Assembly (NCBI GenBank): GCA_029204225.1 | Contig: CM055109.1 | Location: forward strand, 48,242,597-48,306,596 | Direction of reading: 5' to 3' | DNA: 64,000 nt | DNA from: Diphasiastrum complanatum | Lineage: Eukaryota > Streptophyta > Lycopodiopsida > Lycopodiales > Lycopodiaceae | In this document: in pieces, positions 3,380-51,869 of the stretch | How positions within the stretch are numbered: the stretch's first letter is position 1 | How the letters are laid out: every line of letters begins with the position of its first letter | Notes under the pieces: model-generated | Seen by the model: the letters and a program-made list of their open reading frames with translations, nothing else | Told to the model about the DNA's origin: nothing | Databases searched by the model: none | Translations under genes and position numbers: made by a program

Positions 3380-6300
3380 GTAACTTCATACTGCATGTAT
3401 GTGTCCAACTCTTTCTTTAACCTATCAGACGTAAATTTGAATGTGTGCCAGTGAGCATGCGATTTCTTTTTTAGATATGACATAAAACAGTAACTGCCGC
3501 CTTGTCTCATATCTTTGACCAGAGATAAGTTGCTCTTTTAAAGAGCAATACCATCAACATTGAAGGTAAAGACAAGAGAACAAATAGTGTGCTTGGCTGG
3601 TTTAAAACAGTCAGCATAGAGAACATGTGTCACCTCAAGCACTTGCTGGAATCAAAGAAGTGTTTTGTATTTTAGCATACACATAGTTTACTATGTTTTT
3701 TCAATTTGCAAATTGTTCTTCAGTAAGTAGAAAAGCTTCTTAATTCCTTATTGAACTGATAGCAAGTATTTTGCACACTAATTTCTCAATGGAATTTGTT
3801 ATAGAGAAATGTTTGGCAGCATGAGTTTATAAGTTTAGAAATCTCATCCCATTATACTTGAAATATTTTGAACAATTATCATGTAATATCATTACGATAA
3901 GAACTTGCATAGCTGAAGTACCTACAATTTGGAGTAGGTTCCTGTTATGTCCATAGACGTGTGTAGTTGGTGTTGGAAACTGAAAATCAAAGAGAGAGCG
4001 TTCAACACATTGAAACACATGGAAGAATGGAGGAGAAGGGTGGGCGCGCCAAAGAAACTCACTGGACTACAAAGTCTCTTTGTTGCTTGCATTCAATAGT
4101 GGAGGAAATACATGAATATGTAGAGGACCCAAGGTGGGATCAACAATAGGCTGAAAACCTAACTTCTCCTACAAGCAACTCAAGTAAAGGCCATGTACCT
4201 GTAATTTTGGATACTTTATTAACCAAGGCCATGGACCAGCAAGTTTCTAATTAGAGGGCCCACAGCTAAAGTATATGACCAAAGTAAACAACCGACAGTT
4301 ACACAATCTTGAAGTTTTGGGTCAAAGCAACCTGAAGGTAAAATATTAGCATTTCCATTATTATAATCCAACAGGTGGTATTAGGCTTGGCCTAACCATA
4401 TGGTAGCCCTTAACCCGAAAGAGGTCTTGATCCTTATTTGGTTAAGGCCCTGTGCTCATTCAAGGGTGGTTGTGGATGATGTCTTTATTTGGATATTGTG
4501 GCTATGCATGGAAGGGGATGCCTGAATGGGTAACTTCTTGCAAGTGACATCAATTTGGAGGCGGCTAAAACTTACAAATCTGAAGATCTTGCAAAGGAGG
4601 AGAGAATACCCAAATTTTTATACATCAACAGAATCAGCATGAACTTTGAAGCAAGGAAGAAGGCTACATCAAGATCCAGCCATTAGCATAGTTGGAAAGC
4701 TCTCTTGAAGTCCTACAAAGTCATAAAACTCTCTTGATAACATTCTTAGTGGCTTTAGACCCTGACTTGGGCTAATACCTTATCTATTGTTTTTTCTCTC
4801 TCCAAAAACTAGACATGTCGAGTTTAAGTGAATTTGTATTGCCTAAAGCTAGCAAGCTAGATGGCGTCAATTATAGTATCTAGAAGTTCAAAATGTAGAA
4901 TATCCTTATGGATAAAGATTGTTGGGGAATTATCACAAGTGGGTAAAAAACCAAGAACAGATCATGCTTATCATATCATCAATCTTTCTATCAAAGATAA
5001 TATTATTCCTCAAATTAGGAATGCTCAATTACCCAAGGAAGCTTGGGACATTCTCAAATCAATCTATGAAACAATGAATACTCTAGAATCTTATATCTAA
5101 AGAACAAATTGTACCACTATAAGGATGAGCATAGAAGAGTTCATCAGAGACCTCACAAAGATCAAAGATCTAAGCTACTGGAGAGAGAATTTCATATTCT
5201 GAACTTGTCACAATAACTCTTAATAGCTTATCTCCTTCTTTTCAACATTTGGTCATTGCCAATTTCTACAAGAGAAAGAAGGCCAACATTTGAGGAGGTG
5301 AATGAATTGCTACTGGATGAAGAACTGAGAAGGCAAAATCTCTCTTTGAACAACTCACAAGAGCATGCCTTTTGCAACTAAAAAGCAGTCCTTTTGATGC
5401 AGGTCAAAGAAGCACACATACGCAAAATTTCAGCAAAGAACATACTATTGTGCCAAGGATGATACCTTCATTTTTCAAACAAAATATGCCCGAGGAGATA
5501 CTCAAGAAGTTCAACATAGCAAGAATGCAAACCGATATCAACTCCCATTGACAAATACAAAGCAACACTTGTTGCAAAAGAACATGCACAAAGAGAAGGC
5601 ATAGATTACGAGGAGACTTCATCTCTTGTAGCAAAAATGATGACAATCCGACTTGTTTTGGCAATAGCATCGTACTTCTATTGGAATGTCCAACAAAGGG
5701 ATATAAATAAGTGCATTTCTTAATGGATATCCTCAAGAAGAAGTCTATATGGAACAACCACAAGGATTTGTTGCTCAAGGCAAAGACCACTATGGACACA
5801 AAGAAGCTCATAGATGAGTATTTTAGCAAGCTAGAAGTTTAGAAAAGCAAATCTAACCCTTTGTGTGAAGGAAGATGGTGAAGACATCACCATTGTTGTT
5901 CTTTATGTTGATGATCTTATAATTACAGGCACTGATCAAGCAAAAATTGATGACCTCAAGGAAGGTCTCACCAAGGAATTCGAACACTAATTGTGTTGTT
6001 CATCTAGTTAGCTTTTATCTTTTCTCTTATGAATTTGAATTGATAAAAAGATGTAGTTTTCTATATGAAGACCCTAACGATTTTGGTTGAGAAATCTATT
6101 CTAAAGACTAATGTGAACTTAGACCTTTCTATAAACCAGGCTAGGTCAGGTTTATTGGTTGATGTTTTTTGATAAAAGGCTACAGCCAGAATATAGTAAC
6201 TTGAACATAATTCGCATACCTTATATTTCTTCTTTTATGGTTCCACAATTTTCCATGGGCATTAAAAAATCATCATTAAAAATATTTGTTGACAGTTTTC

Positions 6301-9300
6301 AAGTTTTTCACAAATCCTATTTTTGTTACAAGCAAATGTTTCATGGGATTCAAAAATTTATGAAATTCGATGGATAATTTTTTTAGTGCCCCTTTCCAAA
6401 GTTGATTGCAATTTGATTTTGTTTTTCAACTTAAAAACCTCTATTAACTGTTTCATTTGAGCTTGGATTCTGAAGCTGTAAGAAAATTGCTCCCTCTAAC
6501 ATGATCTACAAGTTGGGAATAACATCGGTGCTAAATTCCACTTGTACAATGTTCATTTGTGGTTTTTAAAATTGCCACAAAAAGACATTTCATTTTTATT
6601 GTGTATGTTTTCAGTCATCGTATTGACCTTGAGTTTTAAGTGGGTCTAGAGAGCAGAGCTCATTCGAAATTTTCTTTTAAAATTTTTCTTGCACCAATGT
6701 AGTTTAGATTTTCCTGCATAAGTGTTTAGGAGCTAACTATCTTCAGGATTCTCATGAGTCCATTTTAGAAGAGCTTAATGTGGCTATTGCTAGAGAACGG
6801 TATTCTTTATGGGGTCTCAAGAGCTCAACAGCCAAGAAAATGTGAATAATGATTTGAAATATTTTCTTAGTCAGGCAAAATTTCCTGGAAAGCTAATTAC
6901 ATTCCGTACCTTATCATATCATTTTCTTTGGGAAGGTCTGCATTGCTCTACAAAGCTAAATGTACTAATTCATTATTGAGCAGTGTTAACAATGATTCTC
7001 TAGCAATAGCTAATCAAAATAGTCAAAACATCAAGTTCTTGGTTCGGTTTTGGAATGTATCTTCATTAATTGCGATCGATGTTTCAAGCACATTAACGGG
7101 GAAATACAAATACTATATTTTGAAATGAAAGTCAATTTTCATGAAGTCATGGTAGCAATAGTAGAACCCATGGTTTTCTTGGGTTCTACTATCCATTGGT
7201 GCACTATACTTGTGATTGCTTGCAATTCTATGTGTAGAATGATCTATAATTGCTATTTTTGGATCCACATGTGTGAAATACGGTAGCTTGCTGGTTTTGT
7301 ACGGACAGCAACAATACTTTATCATTTGATTCATGTTTGATCAAGTTCTATTAGAGTTTGCATCTCATTTTGTGTGTAGATGCTGATATCTCTACATTGG
7401 TGACTTTGGTAGGATATTGTAACCCAAGATCTTTTTGTGGATTCGATCATAAATGATCTGAAATCCTTCACATGGTATCAAAGCTTGTGTTTCAGGTTAT
7501 GAAGGAGGAAATCATATCTATCAATGAGTTGGTGAAGATATCAAGGCTAGAGCATGCTAGAGAGGATTCTACTCCAAAAATCGAGTTTTTTGCTTTTGTA
7601 GATTGGATCTTTTGTAGATCAAAACCCTATAACAATTCCGATTTTTTATTTCACATACTAGATTTGGCCGATTTTTGGATCATTGGATCAGCCTAAGTGG
7701 TGGCTAATAGATTGCATATCAAATTTTCAGCATTTGCATGTAGATTTGGAATAGTCGATTTTTTGTGATTTTGTCAAAACCCTAATTTTGATTGGATCTC
7801 TAGATAGTGAGGTTGCTAGACTTCATTTGAGTGTGTTTCAATCTTAGGAAGTGGCAAAAGTCATTGGATTGAGGATAGATCATAGGTTGATCAAGATTCC
7901 ATGATTCTATGTGTTGATTTGCTTGGTATAAGTGCTAGAAGAGAATTTTTGAGATGGTTTCAAATCTTTGTGATTTCTTTTGAAAACATTTTTTGCTATT
8001 CAAAAGAGTGCTTTGTGCATTAAAACAGGTTGAAAAAAAAGATCAGGTCATTGCTACATGGCAACCTCAATTGGAGTCATGTGCTTACCTCAAGTAACTC
8101 TTCATTGTGGAAAGTCAGGATGGAATCACTTCTTGAGATGAATAATGTTTTGGATATTGTTGTAGGTTTGGAGGAGAGACCAGCAACACAACAAGATCAA
8201 GTGAGGTATGATAAGAGGGCCAAAAAGGCTCTACACATGATCAAGATGAATGTTACCATCGACACTTCAAGAGTATGCTATGTTCACAAAGGGCAAATTC
8301 AAGGGCAAAACCAAAAGTAAGTGGTCTAAAGGGCAAGATCAAGTGGATGCTTCTTCAAGTGGCCAAAACAAGGATAGATCAAAGCTCAAGTGCTTCTATT
8401 GTGGCATCAAAGGACACTTTGCAAGTGAGTGCTACAAGAAGAAGAGAGATCAAGGAGACAAGCAAGGTAATCTTACTCTCGATGAGGATGGTTTGGATGT
8501 TCAAGATGCAAATGATGTTGCTTTTGTGATGTCTTCATGTATGCTTGCTAATGATGGAGATCTAGAAAATTGGTGGATTGATAGTGGAGCAAGTTCACAC
8601 ATGACCTTTCACAAAGAGTACTTCACTTCTTTGTTGGCATATGGAGATGACAAGAGGGTGATCTACACGGCCAATAATGGTGAGTGTGCAATCAAAGGGA
8701 TTGGCACAATTCCTATTTCTCTCTCTACACATAGGAATGTTCATTTGGAGGATGTCTTGTTTATTCCATCTATTACCAAGAATTTGCTTAGTGTGAGTCA
8801 AATGCTAAGTAAAGGCCTCAAAGTTGAGTTTGATGGAGATGCTTGTATGATCAAAAGGATGTCTTGATTGGAAAAGGTAAAAGGCAAGGAAAGTTGTTCA
8901 AACTAGATTCTTGTGTTATTGCTAACACAGTTGGATGTGTTGCAAGAGAGCAAATACATATTCAAGAGGTTTGGCATAAAAGGATGGGACACCTCAACTT
9001 TAAGTCATTGGAGGTAATGGCTAGAAAGAAGGTTGTAATAGGTTTTCCAAGTTCCTTAAGTGGCATCAATCATGTTTGTGAGTCTTGTGCTTTGTCAAAG
9101 TCACATAGACTACCTTATACTAGATCTATATCTAGATCTACAAAGCCTTTCAACTTGTACATTCAGATATTCATGGATTTACTACAATTAGCAATAGTGG
9201 AGCTAAGATGTATGTAACATTCATTGATGATTTTAGTAGATTTTGTTGGATCTATTTACTAAAGAGCAAGGATGAAGTGTATGATGTCTTTATCAAGTTC

Positions 9301-12300
9301 AAGAATGCAAGGGAGAACCAATTTTCCACAAGGATCAAGTGCTTAAGGAGTGACAATGGTGGTGAGTACATATCTACCAAGTTGGCCTTTTGTGATGAGC
9401 ATGGGATCAAGAGGGAGTATACAACATCAAGGACCCCACAACAAAATGGAGTGGCTGAAAGGAAGAATAGGACTTTATGTGAAAGTGCTAAAGCCATGAG
9501 GTTAAGTGCTAATCTTGACAAACCATTTTGGGATCAAGCTTTGTTGTGTGCCAATTTCTTGTGCAATAGGTGGCCGAGATGAAAGGACACCTTTTGAGAT
9601 ACTATTCAAGAAGAGGCCGAGTGTGAACTTTCTAAAAACCTTTGGATGCACATGCTATGTCAACATTACTCTTGATGATAGGACCAAGGAGGATCCATCT
9701 TCAAGAAGAGGTATTTTTGTTGGATATAGTGAGGTGAGTAAAGCCTACAAGGTTTACATTCCTTCTACTAACAAAGTGATTGTTGGTAGAGATGTCATCT
9801 TTGATGAGGGAAACATTTCAAAAGTGTCTTCAAGCATGATTGATAAAGGTGTGGTTGGATCTAACATTCTTGATGTTGATGTAAAGGATCCTACTTTGGA
9901 TGGTGATGATGATGGACCTTCATCAAGTCAAAAGCCAAGGAGAACATCAAGGGAAAGACAAGTACCTTCAAGGCTCACATATGATGCAAAGGGTAAGCAA
10001 GTAGTTTCTAGAAATTATGTTGCTTTCCTAACCTCTTTTGATGAACCTACAAGTGTAGATGAAGCAAGGAAAGAAGAGGAGTGGATCCAAGCAATGGATC
10101 TTGAGTATCAAGCTCTTATAAAGAGTGAAACATCTTTTGTATGCAAGTGGATGGATGTTATCTTGCTGTAAAATCAAGTAATGGATCTGGAAAACAAAGT
10201 TTGTTCAATGACTTTGATGGTCAAGTTGATGATCAAGAGGTTGATCTCAAAGGGCTTCAACAAGGCAAAAAGGAAGTTGGCAATTTGGAGCTAGTCAAGA
10301 GCATCAAAGGAAAGGTAATTGGCAAAGATGTTATGGATCTGTTTTTGCAGCTTATTGAAGACTCAAGTAAGGTCAAAGGAGTAGCAAGGAAGTATTGTTC
10401 AAGTCTATTTTACTTGTGCTATCTCATGTTTGAGCATTTTCATGTGGATGTGTGCAAATTGTCAAGATATGGTAAAACTAGCTACATTGTTGAGCATCAT
10501 TTTGATGTTGGATTTGTACTAGCATTCTTGGCTAGTTTTGTTGATGGAAATGAAGCTATTGGAGGTTCATTATATCACTCATCCATGGCTAAGTTCTCAA
10601 GTGTTGAGCTACTTAGTGCCAATGGTTGGAGATTGTCAATTTTTGGTGAATTCATGGTCATTTTCTTGTGTCAAGTAGATTTTGAAGATGGACTAGTAAA
10701 ACTTGTTTGGTTTATGGAGTCATGTGGTGCTGCTTTAGTATCATGGATGAACTCACTTACTCATGGATTTCCAAGGCTTGATGGTTTCTTGTGGCAAGAT
10801 GGAGATGAAGGCTCATTCATGGAGTGCCATGATGGATACATGGCAACAAAGGACAAAGGAGGAGGAGACATGCAAGCAAAAGTGGATCACTCACATTTAT
10901 TGGTTGTTTGCTGTATTTTTCCAGAGAGTTCAAAGTTGGAAGCATGGTGGAATCACATGCTATTTGATTCTTCATGTACTAATTACTTCTTGACATGTAA
11001 AATTGATGTAAAAAATAGTGAAGCATCCCAAGTGGACACTATTCTCTATATCAATTATGGTTGTTTCTATTTTGTGCATTACATGATCATTGAAAGGAGA
11101 TCTATTCTTAGGAAGAAGATCATTCTTATGATGGATCAAAGTTCTATGGTCAAAACTATGCTAGGAGCAAGCATGTTGAGGTGCAACAACATTTTGTGAG
11201 AGAGCAAGTCATTGCAAAGGAGGTGGAGCTTCAACATGTGTCCTCAAGGGAATGTGTAGCTGATATCTTCACCAAAGCATTGGGTAAGGACTTGTTCATG
11301 AAGCATAGGACATCACTTGGAGTGTTATCAAAGTCCATGCTAAAACTAGTTGAAGAGGGAGTGTGAAAGATTCAACTAGTTTGATCATATTTGCTATATT
11401 TTCATATTTGGCAACACAACTCAGTCTTCTGAGCATTGACATACAAGGCAAAAACTTCTATCTTGCAAAATATGGCCTTTAGATGTTGATGTCAAGTAGC
11501 TAACTGGGAAGTAACAAGATTTTGACACAAACAGACTTTCACTCTCTTGCTTTTTTCAAACAAAGTACAAAAGTGTGATTTTCACACAAAAAGAAGACAA
11601 AATCCAAAAAAGATGAATTCACAAGGACAAATTACTCTCTAATCTTGATGATTCATTTGGGACATGCACTCCTAATCAACATTTGAACTTGATAGAACAA
11701 TTCAGCTTTCAAAACCCGAAAAACTTCGAGCTGACGCAAATTTTGAATCCTGGCTCAAAAAAGGTCAAACAATAGCCTCGAATCAGATGTAAATCATTTG
11801 CAATCATATCCAAAAATTTGTTGAGGCTCTATCCACAGTAGGACACCCTCCTCTAAGGAATCTCTATGCCAAATTTGAATTTGATTAGCCAAAAAATCAA
11901 GGTTTTATGAAGTTTCAACTCTCAACCCCTAAAAAATGCTCAAAAGTTGGAAAAGATCATTCTCTGCACATTTTTCTGGTTGACCTCTTCCTAGATAGTG
12001 TTTTAGGTTTAGAAAGGTGTCCCCAAAATCTGGTCCAATTATGTGGCCTGTAGACAAAGTTTTGAACATTTTTCTGTTGAAAAAAGTGGCCAAAACTTGG
12101 AAACCCTTATTTTTTGGCTGTTTTTGTGTGGTGCCAACTTTGTTGTCCTGTATTGATCTGAAGAGACGTGCTAACTAGCTCCTCTATCAGTGACTTATAG
12201 TAGCAATCCACCTCTAATCTTTCTTTACCGCAGATTCACCAAGAAGATTGAGAAAAAATGATTATTTTTTACATTCTCTCTAGAACGAGCTGTTCTCTCT

Positions 12301-34700: not shown

Positions 34701-36010
34701 ACGTATCCTTTGAGTACTTGGCCTTGTGTTCAAAGACCGTAGCGGGCATGGACAACTGGAAAGATAACCCATCCTTGATGACATCCTCTAGTCCACTCCA
34801 CTATACAACAATATTCTCTAGAAACTGGAGTAGTCCACAGTGTTTTGATATTGGAACCACTACAGTTCTGATTGATAATCGTCCATTTGCACATGCCACA
34901 TCTTTCTGTAAAATGATCTAAAATTGAATCCATGAGAGTGAAGGAGAGCACGATCAACTTGAATCTCTTACCCTTCGGCTGTTGTGATGGCCCCCACTGC
35001 GCCCACTCATTTGAAACGATCATTTGCCTCAAGTTTGCATGAATTTTCAACAGTCGTTCTAAGACCATGAACATAAATGCAAACCTGCATGCATTTCATT
35101 CCAGAGTAACAGAGTTTGCATTAGTACAATGATGACCATCAAAGTTTTAAACTCGAAAAAACTTCACAGTTCAAAGCATTGGTACATACATATTAGGTAA
35201 TGACAACTTGCAAGTTTAAAGTGGCAATTTAGTGAATCAATTATGGCAAATTTTTAGTGCTCACAAACTACAATAGCAATTACTACGAATTGAGCTATAT
35301 ACCTTGTGGGGGCAGGTCTCAAGATCCAAGGTGGAGTCTCCTGAAGATGCTCAAGGCCCTTGGCCTCTTTGTGATGAATCTCACCAAGGACTGTCCCATG
35401 TCCAAGACCTCCCTGATCCATGGTATCTTAGCTACATCCTCGACCAACAAGTCCAGGCAATGTGTAGCACAAGGTGTCCAAAAGATGTAAGGGTAGGTCT
35501 CATTAACGAGCCTACCCTTGGCAACGCAATTCACGATATCATCCACAAGTTGTACAATGCAATGTGGGTGGAATTCAAGTGAACCATTGAACATTCAATC
35601 ATGATTGTTGATTGGTCATCGATCATTCAAATCTCAATTGTGAACACTGAACATTGAACATTGTACATATACTACATACTACATACATGAATGATGATAT
35701 TATAAGTATTAAGCAGTGAGCACAATGCACATCATAATCTTAAGTTCAAAGTTCAGACTCTTCAACCTTGAAATTTGAGAGCCTCTTGGCCTAGCTGCTA
35801 AACCTTTTAACAAGTTACTCATTATACCTATACAACATGTTGTGGCCCCACCTCGTCAATGGCAGCGCGAATATGTGTGAACATGTAATCATTCATCACT
35901 GCCACAAACATCATCCCTATGCAGGAAGACACCAAGATATTACATATGTGGTGCTTCTTTGTGTCGCTCCAACCATCAGATATGGTGGTGTAGCCATACC
36001 TAGTTCACTG
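34700..36010 (-). pseudogene. DUF659/hAT-type transposase, decayed
   Basis: Read on - from 36010: ISDGWSDTKKHHICNILVSS and IRAAIDEVGPQHVV (DUF659, the RNase H-like first part of plant hAT relatives, about 35990-35840). Then comes CIVQLVDDIVNCVAKGRLV, then YPYIFWTPCATHCLDLLVED with AKIPWIREVL (35594-35319). Last is LLKIHANLRQMIVSNEWAQW with GKRFKLIVLSFTLMDSI (35074-34900). The family order is kept, but stops and frameshifts separate the blocks and the catalytic Asp of the TDNA motif reads as VDDI. No BED finger or hAT dimerisation domain is visible, and no terminal inverted repeats were found. Confidence 0.82.
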
Positions 36011-38356: not shown

Positions 38357-38710
38357 CTATTCAGTCAATTTTTCTATATTTTCTTTATTAGTATTAGGAA
38401 CTGATAAGGGAATAGCTCCTACAATCTCGCCTTCCTCTGTTTCAAGAAGGGCCTCTATGCCTTTTAAGGCAAGAGGACTCTCTGCTATAGTATCTTCTTC
38501 CTATGTATTAGGATGGACTTCTATTCCTTTTTTATCATATATAATAAGATCTGCATCCTGAGCAACCTGAAAGGTTGTTAAGGCAGGAGCAGCTTGCTTT
38601 TGAGGGTCCTCGATCTCAGGTGCAACGCTTACACCGTTCTGAGCATAGGTTCTGATCAACTCTTGCCGAAATCTATATACATTGTCAGGAGTATACGGCT
38701 CAAGAGTGAA
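38357..38710 (-). CDS. Probable second exon of the H3-like gene
   Basis: Preceded on - by TTTTGTGATGACAG, a plausible acceptor, and open for 69 codons (FTLEPYTPDNVYRFRQELIR...), then a TAG, then 48 more codons (EEDTIAESPLALKGIEALLE..., NTNKENIEKLTE) to a TAG stop. It is acidic and helical in character with no known domain. The link to the histone exon is inferred from strand, spacing (598-bp intron), phase agreement and the shared TAG-only decay. It could instead belong to an unrelated fossil. Confidence 0.45.
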
Positions 38711-40241
38711 CTGTCATCACAAAACAAGAGAATCAGCAGATTACAAACAATGATAATAAAGAAATATGAATCAGAATGAAAGGAACTACAAATAAACAGA
38801 ATATTATCTTTTCAATATGTACATCCACTTGTAAATTATACCAATGGTTATCTCTCCCATTGAGGTTGTCGTTGTCGGTATTTCCCGAACGACATCATGA
38901 AGTAGAGAATCAAATTCTCTGTGTATTTGCAGCTGAGTTTAATTTTACACATAGAAAATTTGATACTCCCTCCTTATTTATTTTTACAGAAATAATGTTC
39001 AAGCTCCAATGCCGACTGCAACAACCAAAATACAAATATCGATAAATCCATACTTATTAAAGCAATGCCGCATGCAACAATCCAGATTAAAGCAACAAAA
39101 ACAAAAGAGCAATCCTTACTTATTTTCATATGGAATCAAATAAAATTTCGCCAAAGGACTACATTCGATAAAATATACAGCCCTCTCGAAATTGGCCTTT
39201 TTTGCCTTTATCGCTCCCATGAAAAATGGACTAACAACAAAAACAATACCATGGGAATCGGAACTAATACTATTCTGCAAAAAAGGATCCTCCGGCTTCT
39301 ACTATTACATCTGAAATTCTTGATGTTTTATCTTTCAGCTCGGCACAAAATCTGGGACCTGATCTAAAGCTTTTACGTGAATTTGGAAGAAAAAAATCAA
39401 AATAATTTTTGAGAAGATCAATTTTATTAGCTAGGTAGGCCTCATATTGGTTATAATGGTCAGAATTAAAATAAACTTGGCCAGAATTGTATGGAATTCT
39501 TACAAAAAGATTATGTACAGGAGCAGAAAGAGAAGTAGATACAATATTTACAAATTTCTTTGTTATTTTGTTGAGCTCCTCTTGGATAATCAATACTTTT
39601 GGTGAAGAAACCTGTTGAGGAGCTGGACGAATAACAAGAGGAAAGGGTGATGATTCTTGATCTGAATCAGATTCTCTAGCATCTGACTCAGAGCTCAAGA
39701 CGATACGGGGTCTCTTGGCCGGGATAACTCTAGGAGGAAGGGAAGCAGTTGGCCTTCGAGATCCAGCCTTCTTGGGGACAGGCTGCTTCCTTTTCCTCCT
39801 AGAGGTAGTCGGCAAGTTGGTTCTATCCAGAGGCAGGTCTCTGGAGGTGCTGGCGTTATCAACATGCAGACCAGAAAAACGGTCTCGAAGTCTTCTGAGA
39901 ATGACGAAATCTTTTGGCATGATGGTGACATGCTTACCATGCACTGCCAAAAGACAGGTATCCTCAAAAAACTGGGACAAAAAATCCTCTGCAACACCCT
40001 GTAAGGCCTGCATGGCTGTCACGGCAAAACGAACTTTTAGCCCAAGTGACAGAGTGACATTCCTTACAGATCGGCTGAAAGGAGCTCTAGGGATCAACAG
40101 TTCAATTGATCTCTGGAGTTTTCTAATCTCCCTCAGCCAGACCTGCTTCCTGCCACGTCTACGGCCAGTACCAGGGGGAACACGGGCATGGGATGGCTAT
40201 ACAGTGGTTATGGCATGGGCAGTGGATTTGATCTTGGCCAT
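38357..40241 (-). pseudogene. CENH3-like histone H3 with long C-terminal extension, two in-frame TAG codons
   Basis: The ATG at 40241-40239 opens MAKIKSTAHAITTV, resembling the H3 start MARTK-TA. A TAG follows at 40199-40197, then an open frame to 39270. After a basic tail (PPGTGRRRGRKQ) comes a complete histone fold: LREIRKLQ, ELLIPRAPFSRSVRNV (alpha-N; LIP-APF is the plant CENH3 signature), MQALQGVAEDFL (alpha-2) and AVHGKHVTIMPKDF with LRRLRDRF (alpha-3). Loop 1 has H3 length, not the two-residue CENH3 insertion. Unlike any standard H3, the chain continues for about 190 residues: basic RRKRKQPVPKK and PAKRPR (likely nuclear localisation), acidic SSESDARESDSDQESS, then an unknown globular-looking part. 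A phase-0 donor (GAT|GTAATA after 39309) can join ACAG|TTC at 38710, a second 118-codon frame with one TAG (38503-38501), ending at 38357. Pseudogene or unusual active gene. Confidence 0.75.
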
Positions 40242-40327
40242 CATTCTCAGAAAAAGAAATAAAAAATAAAAATTTTGAACAAAAGCGCAGGGAATAAAAA
40301 CAAAAAAATTTGCGATAAGAGGTCAAA

Positions 40328-40560
40328 TCACAACGAAATACATTTATACTTTCTATTGTTCCATGAAAAGGGTCCTCCTACAAAGAAACAAATATAATCT
40401 GATGTGGATTTTCTGGTATCCACGTCTCCTACCCAATCTGAATCTGAATAAGTAATTAGCGAAAGATTTTTCTCAAATCCAACAAATGCAGATATAAAGC
40501 CAAATGGCTTTGTAATAGTTTTCCGGATATTTGTGGATGCTGCACTTGACAAATCAATTT
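40328..40560 (-). mobile_element. Copia RNase H fragment
   Basis: The - strand reads ITYSDSDWVGDVDTRKSTSD followed by YICFFVGGPFSW, the hallmark of copia RNase H. About 70 codons survive. It ends less than 100 bp from the presumed start of the H3-like gene, on the same strand. Confidence 0.88.
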
Positions 40561-42964: not shown

Positions 42965-44835
42965 ATGGTTGTGTTGTCACCGATTGATATTGCAATTGTT
43001 GGTCTGCAAGCATATGCCTTGGTATTTCAGTTATTCATTGTTGCCTTAGCTGTAACAGTGCTTGAAAATTCAGGGGTATCCCATGTTTCTGTCTCAACCA
43101 TTGGAGCATCCTCCTGACGTCGTTGTGGCCTTCTTTGTACGCTATTCTCAGCCATATCTCTATAACAGGATGATTTTTAATCACATCTACCATCTTGAAT
43201 TCGCTAGACAAAGCAATTTTGACATCTCTTATGCCATCAAGATCATATTCTGTAAGAATGATATCATCAACATACAACACCAAAATAATGATCTTTTCAT
43301 CATTACGTTTGACATACAATCAAGGTTCATAAGAGCTTCTCACAAAACCAATGGAATAGAGGTAGTTGTGCAACCTAGAGTACCAAGCTCTAGGTGATTG
43401 CTTGAGTCCATAGAGACTCTTATTCAAGTGACAAACTTTGTCTTCATCTCCTTCTTTGATGAAGCCCTCGGGTTGCAACATGTAGATCTCTTCTTCCAAG
43501 AATCCATTTAGGAAAGCATTAGTCACATCACGTTGGAAGAGCTCCCATTTGAAAGAGGTAGCAAGACAAATGATCAACCTTGTAGTGACAAGCTTAGCAA
43601 TAGGAGCAAAAGTTTCATCATAATCTATGCCTTTAGTTTGCAAGAAACCTTTTGCTACGAGCCTAGCTTTGTACTTATTAATGGATCCATCTTGATTGTA
43701 CTTCAATCTATAAATCCACTTACAAGAAACTGGTTTCTTCCCATGTGGAAGATTTACAGGATCCCAAGTTTGATTTTCTATCAATGCATCCAACTTTACT
43801 TGCATAGCATCTTTTCAAGATTGTGACTTAATAGCATCTTCAAACCTCCTTGGCCTTCTCGGATCTTGAGATATATCCTCAAAGACTTCATCACCTTGAA
43901 GCTCCTCCTCGTCCTTTGCAGGATCTTGGACACCATGAGAGGTAGATGAGCTCTCATTCACCTTGGCATAGTGAGATTCATCAAAGAGAACATCTCTACT
44001 TTAACTTTCTTGGTAATAGGATCACATATCCTATATCCATTGCTACTTTCACTATAACCAACAAAAATGCCTTTAAATGAAGTAGCATCATCTTTCTTCC
44101 TTAATTCTAAAGGAATATGGACATATCAAATACATCCAAATACTTTCAAATCTCTTACCTTTGGCTTTTTGCCATACAAGGCTTCATATGGTGTGATTTC
44201 ACCAATGGCACTATTAGGAAGTCTATTACATAAAAATTTGCACAAGTAATAGCTTCTCCCCAAAAAGAAATGGGTGGCACCTAATCTCAAAGCTTCAGCA
44301 CATTCACACATATCTATTTTTTCTCTTGGCCACCACATTTTGTTGGGGGGTGTAAGTACATGTGAATTGTCTCTTTATGCCATTAGTCTCACAAAAAAAT
44401 CTCTCATGCTTTGGAGATGTACTCTCCTCCATTATCACATCTTAATACTTTGATGTTAGCATTAAGTTGCTTCTCAACAAGAGATTTAAACTTTACAAAG
44501 GAATCACACACTAAGCTTTTCTTTGGCAATAAATAGATCCAAGTGTATCTTGTACAATCATCTATGATGGTTACATACATCAAAGCACCACCATTAGATT
44601 TATCTGAAAATGAATGCACATCCGAGTGAATAAGTTCAAGAGGAGAAGAAGATATAGTCAAAGATCTATTGAATGGTTGCTTATGTGTCTTGGAAAGACC
44701 ACAAGCTTCATGAAGCTTGCCACACTTGGAAATGGATTTAGGAAGTCCGAGTGCTAGCTCCTTGGTTATCATGGTCTCCATTGCTTGGTAGTTAGGATGG
44801 CCTAACCTCTTGTGCCATAACTGAAGAAACAAAAC
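42965..44835 (-). mobile_element. Copia retrotransposon body: GAG-pre-integrase, integrase, reverse transcriptase
   Basis: On - from 44832: WHKRLGHPNYQAMETMI, the integrase IDDCTRYTWIYLLPKK and RCDNGGEYIS; then 44338-44126 (RLPNSAIGEITPYEALYGKK). The reverse transcriptase from 43805 reads ENQTWDPVNLPHGKKPVSCK, YKARLVAKGFLQTKGIDYDE, QRDVTNAFLNG, LYGLKQSPRAWY and, after one in-frame stop at 43320, ILVLYVDDIILT. The polymerase is the best preserved in the window, with both catalytic blocks present. gag/protease is absent from this strand. The end near 43000 is truncated before RNase H. Confidence 0.9.
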
Positions 44836-44879
44836 ATTTCAATTGCCAAAGCTTTGCTAGCTTTCAATCCTAAATTTAA

Positions 44880-50928: not shown

Positions 50929-51474
50929 TTAAATCTTGGTAATCTTATCTGCTTTAACCACAGGATTTGCCTTTGATATGGCGTCCCGCCCTGTAGATCT
51001 GTAATCAAATGTGCAGCTATGCTTATCAGAGTACCTGTGCAAAGCACAAAAGACGTTACCGCAACGACATTTGAAGCCTGTCAATCCAACACGCTTCTTG
51101 CAAGTGAGACAGCGGTTTGGAGGAGCATTCGGAGCCTGGTCCTCGGTCGATGTCTCAAACGAAATGGTTTGCTGTGTACTAGGCTTCACAACAGACTGAC
51201 TTGGGCCCGGAAGAAGAGCATTGACTTCTGGTTCTGGCTGCCTTTCCACTGAGTTTGTCCCTTCTGTAAATAAATCAGTCACCGCCTGAACAGCAGTCGC
51301 TTCAGCTTTCGTTATAGTAGAAGAATTTGACTGTTTCAGAACAAGATCACGGTAACACTTGGAACAAAGGTTCATGGTCGCTGCACTTCCGAAAAATCCA
51401 CAATTGTTACTACAAAAAGCAGGTGCTTCCGGGGCCTGACAGCCAGTCTCCTCGTTCCAACTATCCTGAGACAT
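50929..51474 (-). CDS. A20/AN1 zinc-finger stress-associated protein
   Basis: Intact 181-residue, intronless coding sequence, the usual length for plant SAPs. The A20 finger occupies residues 21-40 (C21, C25, C37, C40; spacing CX3CX11CX2C, with the NNCGFFGS turn). The AN1 finger runs 122-154 (C122, C125, C136, C138, C143, H146, H152, C154). The low-complexity linker between them is Ser/Thr/Glu-rich. Known plant members act in the cytoplasm and nucleus, where A20 binds ubiquitin, and they modulate responses to drought, salt, cold and ABA; that role is inferred here from the family. Starts at 51474 with no in-frame ATG upstream before the presumed leader. An acceptor-like TCCGTTTCAAG just before the ATG suggests a 5' UTR intron, as in other SAP genes. 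Confidence 0.96.
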   Translation of the reverse strand: MSQDSWNEETGCQAPEAPAFCSNNCGFFGSAATMNLCSKCYRDLVLKQSNSSTITKAEATAVQAVTDLFTEGTNSVERQPEPEVNALLPGPSQSVVKPSTQQTISFETSTEDQAPNAPPNRCLTCKKRVGLTGFKCRCGNVFCALHRYSDKHSCTFDYRSTGRDAISKANPVVKADKITKI

Positions 51475-51869
51475 CCTTTTTGCAACTTGAAACGGACAGA
51501 GATGTCAGCAGGAAAATAAAACCTGTTTACTTTCAGAGGCTTCAAAGTCCTAAATAGTTCTTTTAAAAGAACATCATCTATACAATGAGAATGAAAATTA
51601 AATAACTTCCGTCATGCATCGGCTTTCCATTCTTCTTTCCCTCCGAAAAGTCCCAACTACGCTCCACTATCGAGACAAGCCCTTGAGACCTCTTCTTCAA
51701 ATCCTTGGACCAATCGCTTTGATTCGCATCTGCCTCCTTCACAAACGCATCGAATCCACTAATAGGCCGAATCCACTAACAGCCATCCTGCAACACTATC
51801 AAGAAACCAATCCTCTCTGGAACCGAGCAATCACAATTCCAAAAGAAAACGTACGGAAAGAATAGTCTA

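Follow-up and report, generated by a model that had tools for sequence, protein, structure and literature searches.

An extended H3-type histone gene of the lycophyte Diphasiastrum complanatum and its probable origin in high-copy mobile elements bounded by terminal inverted repeats

In a stretch of 64,000 nucleotides from the Diphasiastrum complanatum genome (contig CM055109.1, positions 48,242,597 to 48,306,596; hereafter "the window"), one reading frame joins the fold of a histone H3 to a long C-terminal extension. What kind of gene is this? An initial annotation of the window had proposed either a duplicated centromere histone of the host or a histone taken up by a mobile element, a copia fragment being its neighbour. 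Comparison with other copies in the same genome suggests a link to mobile elements of another kind than copia. The gene very probably comes from a lineage of elements, high in copy number and bounded by terminal inverted repeats (TIRs), which carry a transposase-like gene, a second gene (ORF2) and an extended H3-type histone. The extension is C-terminal in family W, to which the window copy belongs, and in family B, and N-terminal in family A.

The minus-strand frame 40196..39270 exhibits 308 open codons, against a longest open frame of 169 codons in 1000 random Markov-1 sequences of 3 kb each with the local composition. Its translation matches the Pfam histone family (PF00125) at residues 11-104 with 81.4 bits (E-value = 8e-23), and its top match in PDB is a histone H3 (E-value = 1.2e-20), H3 chains being the best. 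The H3-type fold with its alphaN helix places the protein in the H3 superfamily. About 200 residues continue in frame beyond the fold; this extension has no match in Pfam at an E-value of 1, and nothing better than 0.14, and nothing convincing, among PDB sequences. Within the fold, loop 1 exhibits the canonical H3 length, the motifs LIPxAPF..R and KDF are CENH3-like (judged against plant CENH3 rows) and the alphaN helix carries a tryptophan. Identity to a plant H3.1 row extends to 49 of the 92 aligned residues, about half. The lack of a clean fit to either H3 or CENH3, suspected in the initial annotation, is borne out, and the open frame, the Pfam and PDB matches and the further copies described below establish the fold with its attached extension as genuine.

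We searched the D. complanatum assembly (1.74 Gb, 5176 contigs, labelled C1, C2 and so on) with the window protein. Besides the window, at least 127 other copies of fold plus extension were found, all below an E-value of 1e-134, with 73-85% identity and mostly near the full 308 residues; this is a lower bound, 128 of the 9410 first-look candidates having been scored. The architecture was to be given up if fold and extension never occurred together elsewhere; they occur together in these 127 copies and in the diverged family B. One hundred of the copies lie on C1-C23, with at least one on each, and 27 on other contigs; some of those listed are near-duplicates of each other. No stop interrupts the match in 16 copies, and the remaining 111 contain stops, 253 in all: 175 TAG, 47 TGA and 31 TAA. 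Codons one step from TAG, TGA and TAA are balanced (38/35/38) in L049, a relative at C10:22780000-22789999. Conversion of CAG at CHG-methylated plant sites yields TAG stops, and the TAG excess despite balanced codons would be the pattern expected of CHG-methylated, silenced copies. A scan of public viral contigs for relatives confirmed none.

A search of the genome with the Pfam histone profile (6325 first-look candidates, 150 scored, 153 matches) returned 13 matches at 164-165 bits and, spread across many contigs, 140 of lower score, of which 137 were listed. Two of the top-scoring loci, L001 and L002, were read and proved to be canonical H3; the 13 (L001-L013) lie on C11 (nine), C5 (three) and C23 (one). 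Seventeen of the 137 lower-scoring matches listed were read (L014-L030) and fall into families A (12), B (four) and C (one); the 137 may also include host H3 exons, in the partial matches at C7:39679211, C22:33629212 and C22:33672453. Family B histones such as L037 consist of a short tail, the fold and, at the C terminus, an extension alignable with that of the window, and W and B histones share 37% identity over 313 alignment columns (E-value = 1e-48). In family A histones (L015 and L022, for example) the protein terminates at the fold, and the tail before it, about 300 residues long with much serine-arginine and proline, opens in L015 with MARTKQTARDPR. The A and B folds are about 49% identical; family C (L018) keeps the fold and is more distant.

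The seven element histones group together as a clade in a tree of 14 rows (support 93/90, below the level that the tool marks with a star), apart from the host H3 L001, and the tree does not join them to its four CENH3 rows, one of which was checked in PDB. The W histone shares with the canonical H3 of the same genome (L001, L002) the fold, the ARTK start (in L049) and many core contact residues, but its fold is about half identical, K9 and most later tail lysines have been lost (as in L049), and the long extension is present. Plant CENH3/CENP-A is approached in LIPxAPF..R and KDF, and human CENP-A likewise has a tryptophan in alphaN. The element histones differ from this class by a loop 1 of H3 length in W and A, rather than the longer loop of CENH3, by the long extension, and by their high copy number beside element genes. 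Family B is one residue longer near loop 1, in a column that differs from the CENH3 rows.

A transposase-like gene and ORF2 stand beside histones of families W, B and A. Between A and B the transposase-like proteins agree at 48% over the aligned part and the ORF2 proteins at about 35% over 89 residues. In B the transposase-like gene runs forward, ORF2 in reverse and the histone forward, and L050, upstream of the W histone at C18:12569180, exhibits the same order, its transposase-like frame being in broken pieces. ORF2 lies divergently upstream, at 0.86-2.0 kb, of 20 of the 127 W histones, where 0.07 pairs would be expected within 3 kb among the matches listed; one further W histone-ORF2 pair has a different arrangement. 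Similarly, for 11 of the 137 listed histones one of the 150 listed matches to the B transposase-like protein is found 1.1-4.3 kb upstream on the same strand (0.14 expected within 6 kb), and a twelfth pair is 15 kb apart in the other orientation. These counts were drawn from the best 128-153 matches per list, so that most true neighbours would go unseen. The transposase-like protein contains a conserved block, DLKTL...CxYC...HxLSNH, a probable transposase motif; the name "transposase" is inferred from such motifs, the linkage and the TIRs. A further locus, L036 (C13:7452000-7461999 and flanks), is probably an element of another kind, in which ORF2 matches accompany two partial histone copies.

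The ends are best defined in family A. The element at C6:51592963-51600908 (7946 bp) is bounded by perfect 37-bp TIRs starting CATTAGGGCCC and holds all three genes, and its flanks are without duplication. In A-type TIRs (L038, L034) each end contains a perfect 11-bp hairpin stem with a 4-base loop. A 1,090-bp insert (L034, C9 at about 56642283-56643372) interrupts the transposase-like gene in one B copy. It has TIRs nearly identical to those of A (one mismatch each) and by its sequence appears to be a non-autonomous relative with A-type ends; a second B copy provides the empty site, and the comparison exhibits no target duplication. Across the genome the TIR pattern occurs 858 + 836 = 1,694 times with at most two mismatches, while the reversed control occurs 0 and 0 times. 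Among 100 places listed, 98 fall on C1-C3 and make up five complete pairs of 1.1-11.4 kb. The B ends, found in separate copies, start CATTAGAGGAG, and the W end in L049 starts CATTAGAGAAAC, the termini CATTAG... being common to A, B and W. TIRs, dispersed copies and non-autonomous derivatives, by which a DNA transposon is recognised, are all present, as demonstrated for A. The link to a mobile element that the initial annotation had guessed at holds, through the transposase-like gene, ORF2 and the TIRs beside the histone genes.

The proposed check for purifying selection between paralogues gave signs of it. Between the window copy and L049 (316 codons) the ratio of nonsynonymous to synonymous substitution rates (dN/dS) is 0.39 overall, 0.75 in the tail, 0.21 in the fold, 0.54 in the linker and 0.37 in the extension; this is a single pair, picked for high protein identity and with one dead partner, and the values are thus support rather than proof. 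Twelve A folds (66 pairs; rows found by fold score, hence biased) give a mean pS of 0.056 and a mean pN of 0.022. From such comparisons the fold and the extension look constrained. In alignment, L049 keeps many DNA-contact and H3-H3 interface positions of H3 (R49, R52, R69, R72, F84, H113, K115, T118, K122, D123 and R129) and departs at R63 (P) and R83 (H), the window having R at the latter. The kept positions make entry into nucleosomes plausible. In the tails that were read, K4 is kept and K9 is lost: MARTKQTARDP in A (L015), MARTKSTAHA in W (L049), and MDRRKQTRRDF or MDRRKRTRRDF in B (L023, L024, L027). Further A copies have G or D at position 9.

Several observations weigh against an element lineage with a working histone. 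The A layout is unlike the order in W and B. Among the matches listed, 106 of the 127 W histones have no ORF2 match, and 125 of the 137 histones no transposase-like match, within 20 kb, and some linked pairs are near-duplicates (C8/C370/C654 and C266/C1479), which leaves fewer independent pairs. A W transposase-like gene was found at one place, L050, in broken pieces; the 10 kb around L049 hold ORF2 and no transposase-like match. Neither the transposase-like nor the ORF2 protein matches a Pfam family above its cut-off. One of the five complete TIR pairs encloses a listed histone, the histone list being a small subset, and a single W element end was observed. Family C has no visible tail. The choice of the dN/dS pair counts here too, as does the pattern used to search for further A tails, which itself demanded lysine 4; the loss of K9 could be drift. 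Structure prediction for the L049 copy gave a pLDDT of 36 and a pTM of 0.19 and is not interpretable.

How do the other explanations compare? Centromeric or variant H3 genes of the host, multiplied into a family by segmental duplication, would agree with the H3-type fold, its CENH3-like positions and the near-duplicates among the listed copies. The units are, however, bounded by TIRs and linked to a transposase-like gene and ORF2, the copies are mostly broken, and the clade stands apart from host H3 L001. This origin is highly improbable, and the duplicated host centromere histone first suggested for the window is not supported, the gene being present in many copies and tied to elements with TIRs. 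Capture by the adjoining copia retrotransposon is scarcely credible. It has in its favour the presumed RNase H remnant at 40328-40558, but the homology to L049 stops at 40321, before that remnant, and L049 has no match to it; the gene has probable introns, and self-comparison of the window revealed no repeats flanking it. The proposed tie to the copia fragment thus falls away. A position as cargo inside copia, between long terminal repeats, was likewise rejected on this self-comparison and on comparison with L049.

The histone might instead be a passenger, an H3 gene captured long ago and copied along without use to the element. Capture of H3 by fungal DNA transposons followed by decay is documented (PMC6710886), and 111 of the 127 W copies have stops inside the match. 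A passenger gene should decay, though, whereas this one was retained with open frames in deeply diverged families (37% between W and B, about 49% between A and B folds), with dN/dS values in the one pair compared of 0.21-0.39 over the fold, the extension and the whole gene, and with an open copy of 397 codons; we regard the passenger as distinctly unlikely. A stronger contender, although still unlikely, is a factor for transposition or targeting rather than for anti-silencing, in which histone and extension would serve the transposition complex or steer insertion towards the centromere, heterochromatin or element DNA. The CENH3-like LIPxAPF, the tryptophan in alphaN and the homology of the extension between W and B would suit such a role. 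The listed W copies are nevertheless dispersed over C1-C23 (a measure of between-contig spread only), and family A terminates at the fold, without a C-terminal extension.

Returning to the lineage of TIR elements, we infer that the histone is a functional part of the element. Plant silencing involves a loop of mutual reinforcement between H3K9 and CHG methylation, and for this reason a histone that lacks K9 could weaken it. Placed on element DNA, such a histone would build nucleosomes without K9, unable to carry the H3K9 methylation that maintains the silencing of plant transposons, and the extension would tether it to element DNA or to other element proteins. That nucleosomes built by the element resist K9 silencing is a tentative possibility. 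The fuller proposal, that a whole lineage of plant DNA transposons has an H3 variant of its own as a core gene and packages its copies in nucleosomes that keep K4 and cannot be methylated at K9, thereby evading silencing, is somewhat more doubtful. If true, a mobile element that supplies a nucleosome component of its own, and that has retained it across deeply diverged families, would represent a new parasite route to chromatin control. Searches for H3 and CENH3 in such genomes should expect to be flooded by element copies, and the elements supply natural H3 variants, lacking K9 and bearing long extensions, with which the roles of the H3 tail could be probed.

Among known systems, VANC is not known to be a histone, and its likeness to the element histone is in proposed function only. 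It is reported as an anti-silencing protein encoded by the VANDAL transposons of Arabidopsis (PMC10398659, PMC5735166). Closer in layout is a hAT element of Pyrenophora tritici-repentis, in which a transposase and a central ORF accompany an H3-like gene (H3L) that is neither H3 nor CenH3 (PMC3538342). The three-part layout, the histone outside H3 and CenH3 and the existence of open copies recur there, but the host is a fungus, the histone copies number 26, a hAT dimerisation domain is present and the part of the report consulted describes no long C-terminal extension (PMC3538342). For the Diphasiastrum elements, by comparison, first-look candidates run into the thousands and the families are several and deep; no Pfam transposase family was matched, and the site compared bears no target duplication. 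The hAT elements of Pseudocercospora fijiensis contain 784 H3-like copies, inactivated by repeat-induced point mutation (RIP) (PMC6710886). There and in relatives the likeness lies in hundreds of dispersed copies, DNA transposons of about 9.5 kb and ancient amplification; the same text gives RIP inactivation of all copies except the original, capture from a host H3 transcript, a 20-bp TIR and an 8-bp target-site duplication (PMC6710886). The Diphasiastrum elements differ, with 16 of 127 W copies free of stops in the match, a diverged and extended histone, a 37-bp TIR (A) and no target-site duplication at the site compared. They thus agree with the fungal H3L type in layout, an H3-like gene in a DNA transposon beside a transposase, without a recognised transposase domain. 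Despite the striking three-part likeness we have not filed them as hAT, because the Pfam search yielded no hAT domain above the cut-off and the single empty site compared lacks an 8-bp duplication. Long cenH3 tails and giant-virus histones fused to unknown proteins have been reviewed (PMC9145170), and a dinoflagellate H3 of 167 residues with a C-terminal extension has been noted (PMC4751559). The initial annotation knew of no described H3 of this architecture. That is too broad, in view of the H3-like genes published from fungal DNA transposons (PMC3538342, PMC6710886). Among the entries listed in searches of open-licence papers, none showed a plant transposon with an H3 gene. What sets this family of transposon-borne H3 genes apart is its occurrence in a plant genome, the long extensions, the presence of several deeply separated branches and the signs of constraint.

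The gene at the window locus is resolved mainly by alignment with L049 (Table 1). The L049 copy has 397 open codons, about 370 counted from its start MARTKSTAHAITT, and its extension amounts to about 250 residues within exon 1. An extension of some 190 residues or more had been expected in the window; it exists but is longer, running on at 39298-39116 in another frame because the window copy is frameshifted relative to L049. The revised model has exon 1 up to the AA/GTAAGG donor, exon 2 from the acceptor at 39015 and exon 3 from 38710, the splice sites being deduced from conservation between the two copies. Read as K-stop, the AA/GTAAGG donor may be the true protein end in some copies. Of the second exon once drawn from 38710 downwards, the conserved acceptor and the sequence to 38631 survive; a probable exon at about 39015-38844 intervenes, and the remainder down to 38357 is without homology support and holds another in-frame stop. 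The exon 3 frame is open to 38504, with no L049 homologue for the part beyond the block. Splicing straight from a donor at 39308 into 38710 was considered and dropped, since the L049 comparison pointed to an exon between. Homology to L049 is bounded in the window by 40321 upstream, just short of the copia remnant at 40328, and by 38631.

Table 1. Features of the histone locus in the window
Feature	Position	Strand	Evidence
N-terminal tail, start MAKIKSTA (H3-like)	40167..40241	-	in-frame ATG at 40241, TAG after 14 codons at 40197-40199; L049 reads MARTKSTA and is open there
H3-type fold, alphaN to alpha3	39885..40166	-	PF00125, PDB H3; dN/dS 0.21 vs L049
Linker: basic, resembling a nuclear localisation signal, acidic-serine	39612..39884	-	from translation; dN/dS 0.54
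C-terminal extension domain, without known family	39273..39611	-	no Pfam match; aligns with B-family extension; dN/dS 0.37
Extension continued in shifted frame	39119..39298 (frame 39298-39116)	-	in frame in L049; B counterpart in L023; then AA/GTAAGG donor kept in L049
Probable exon 2	38844..39015	-	small deletion, then truncated by ~0.2 kb deletion; differs little from an open L049 frame; conserved acceptor TTGTTGCAG
Probable exon 3, FTLEPYTPDNVYRFRQELIRTY	38631..38710	-	acceptor GATGACAG and peptide conserved in L049
Whole homologous block, apparent surviving fragment of a W-family transposon histone gene	38631..40321	-	86.7%/1505 bp + 88.7%/213 bp to L049
Presumed copia RNase H remnant, unrelated, abutting the fragment	40328..40558	-	open frame

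Judged against L049, the stop in the tail, the frameshift in the extension, the small deletion in exon 2 and the loss of about 0.2 kb show that the window copy is dead, an ordinary fragment of what is very probably a transposon histone gene; the initial annotation had missed this. In the window, neither ORF2 nor the transposase-like protein of families A and B finds a match at an E-value of 1e-3, and there is no match to the ORF2 stretch of L049 itself and no matching element end. The plus strand over the histone gene contains an antisense frame of 202 open codons (39661-40269); L049 has a shorter open antisense frame over the corresponding stretch (4246-4659, plus strand).

Elsewhere in the window, copia fragments with Pol_BBD and zinc knuckle and with RVT_2 lie at 8250-8867 (plus) and 43320-43814 (minus), and the frames 9136-10171 and 44404-44838 resemble copia integrase. 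The name copia RNase H for 40328..40558 is assumed from its motif. Frames at 34730-35594 (minus) resemble a broken hAT-type transposase; the 34730-35095 frame has no Pfam match above the cut-off. A 191-residue A20/AN1 zinc-finger frame at 50929-51504 (minus) is the only clear host-type gene among the frames searched.
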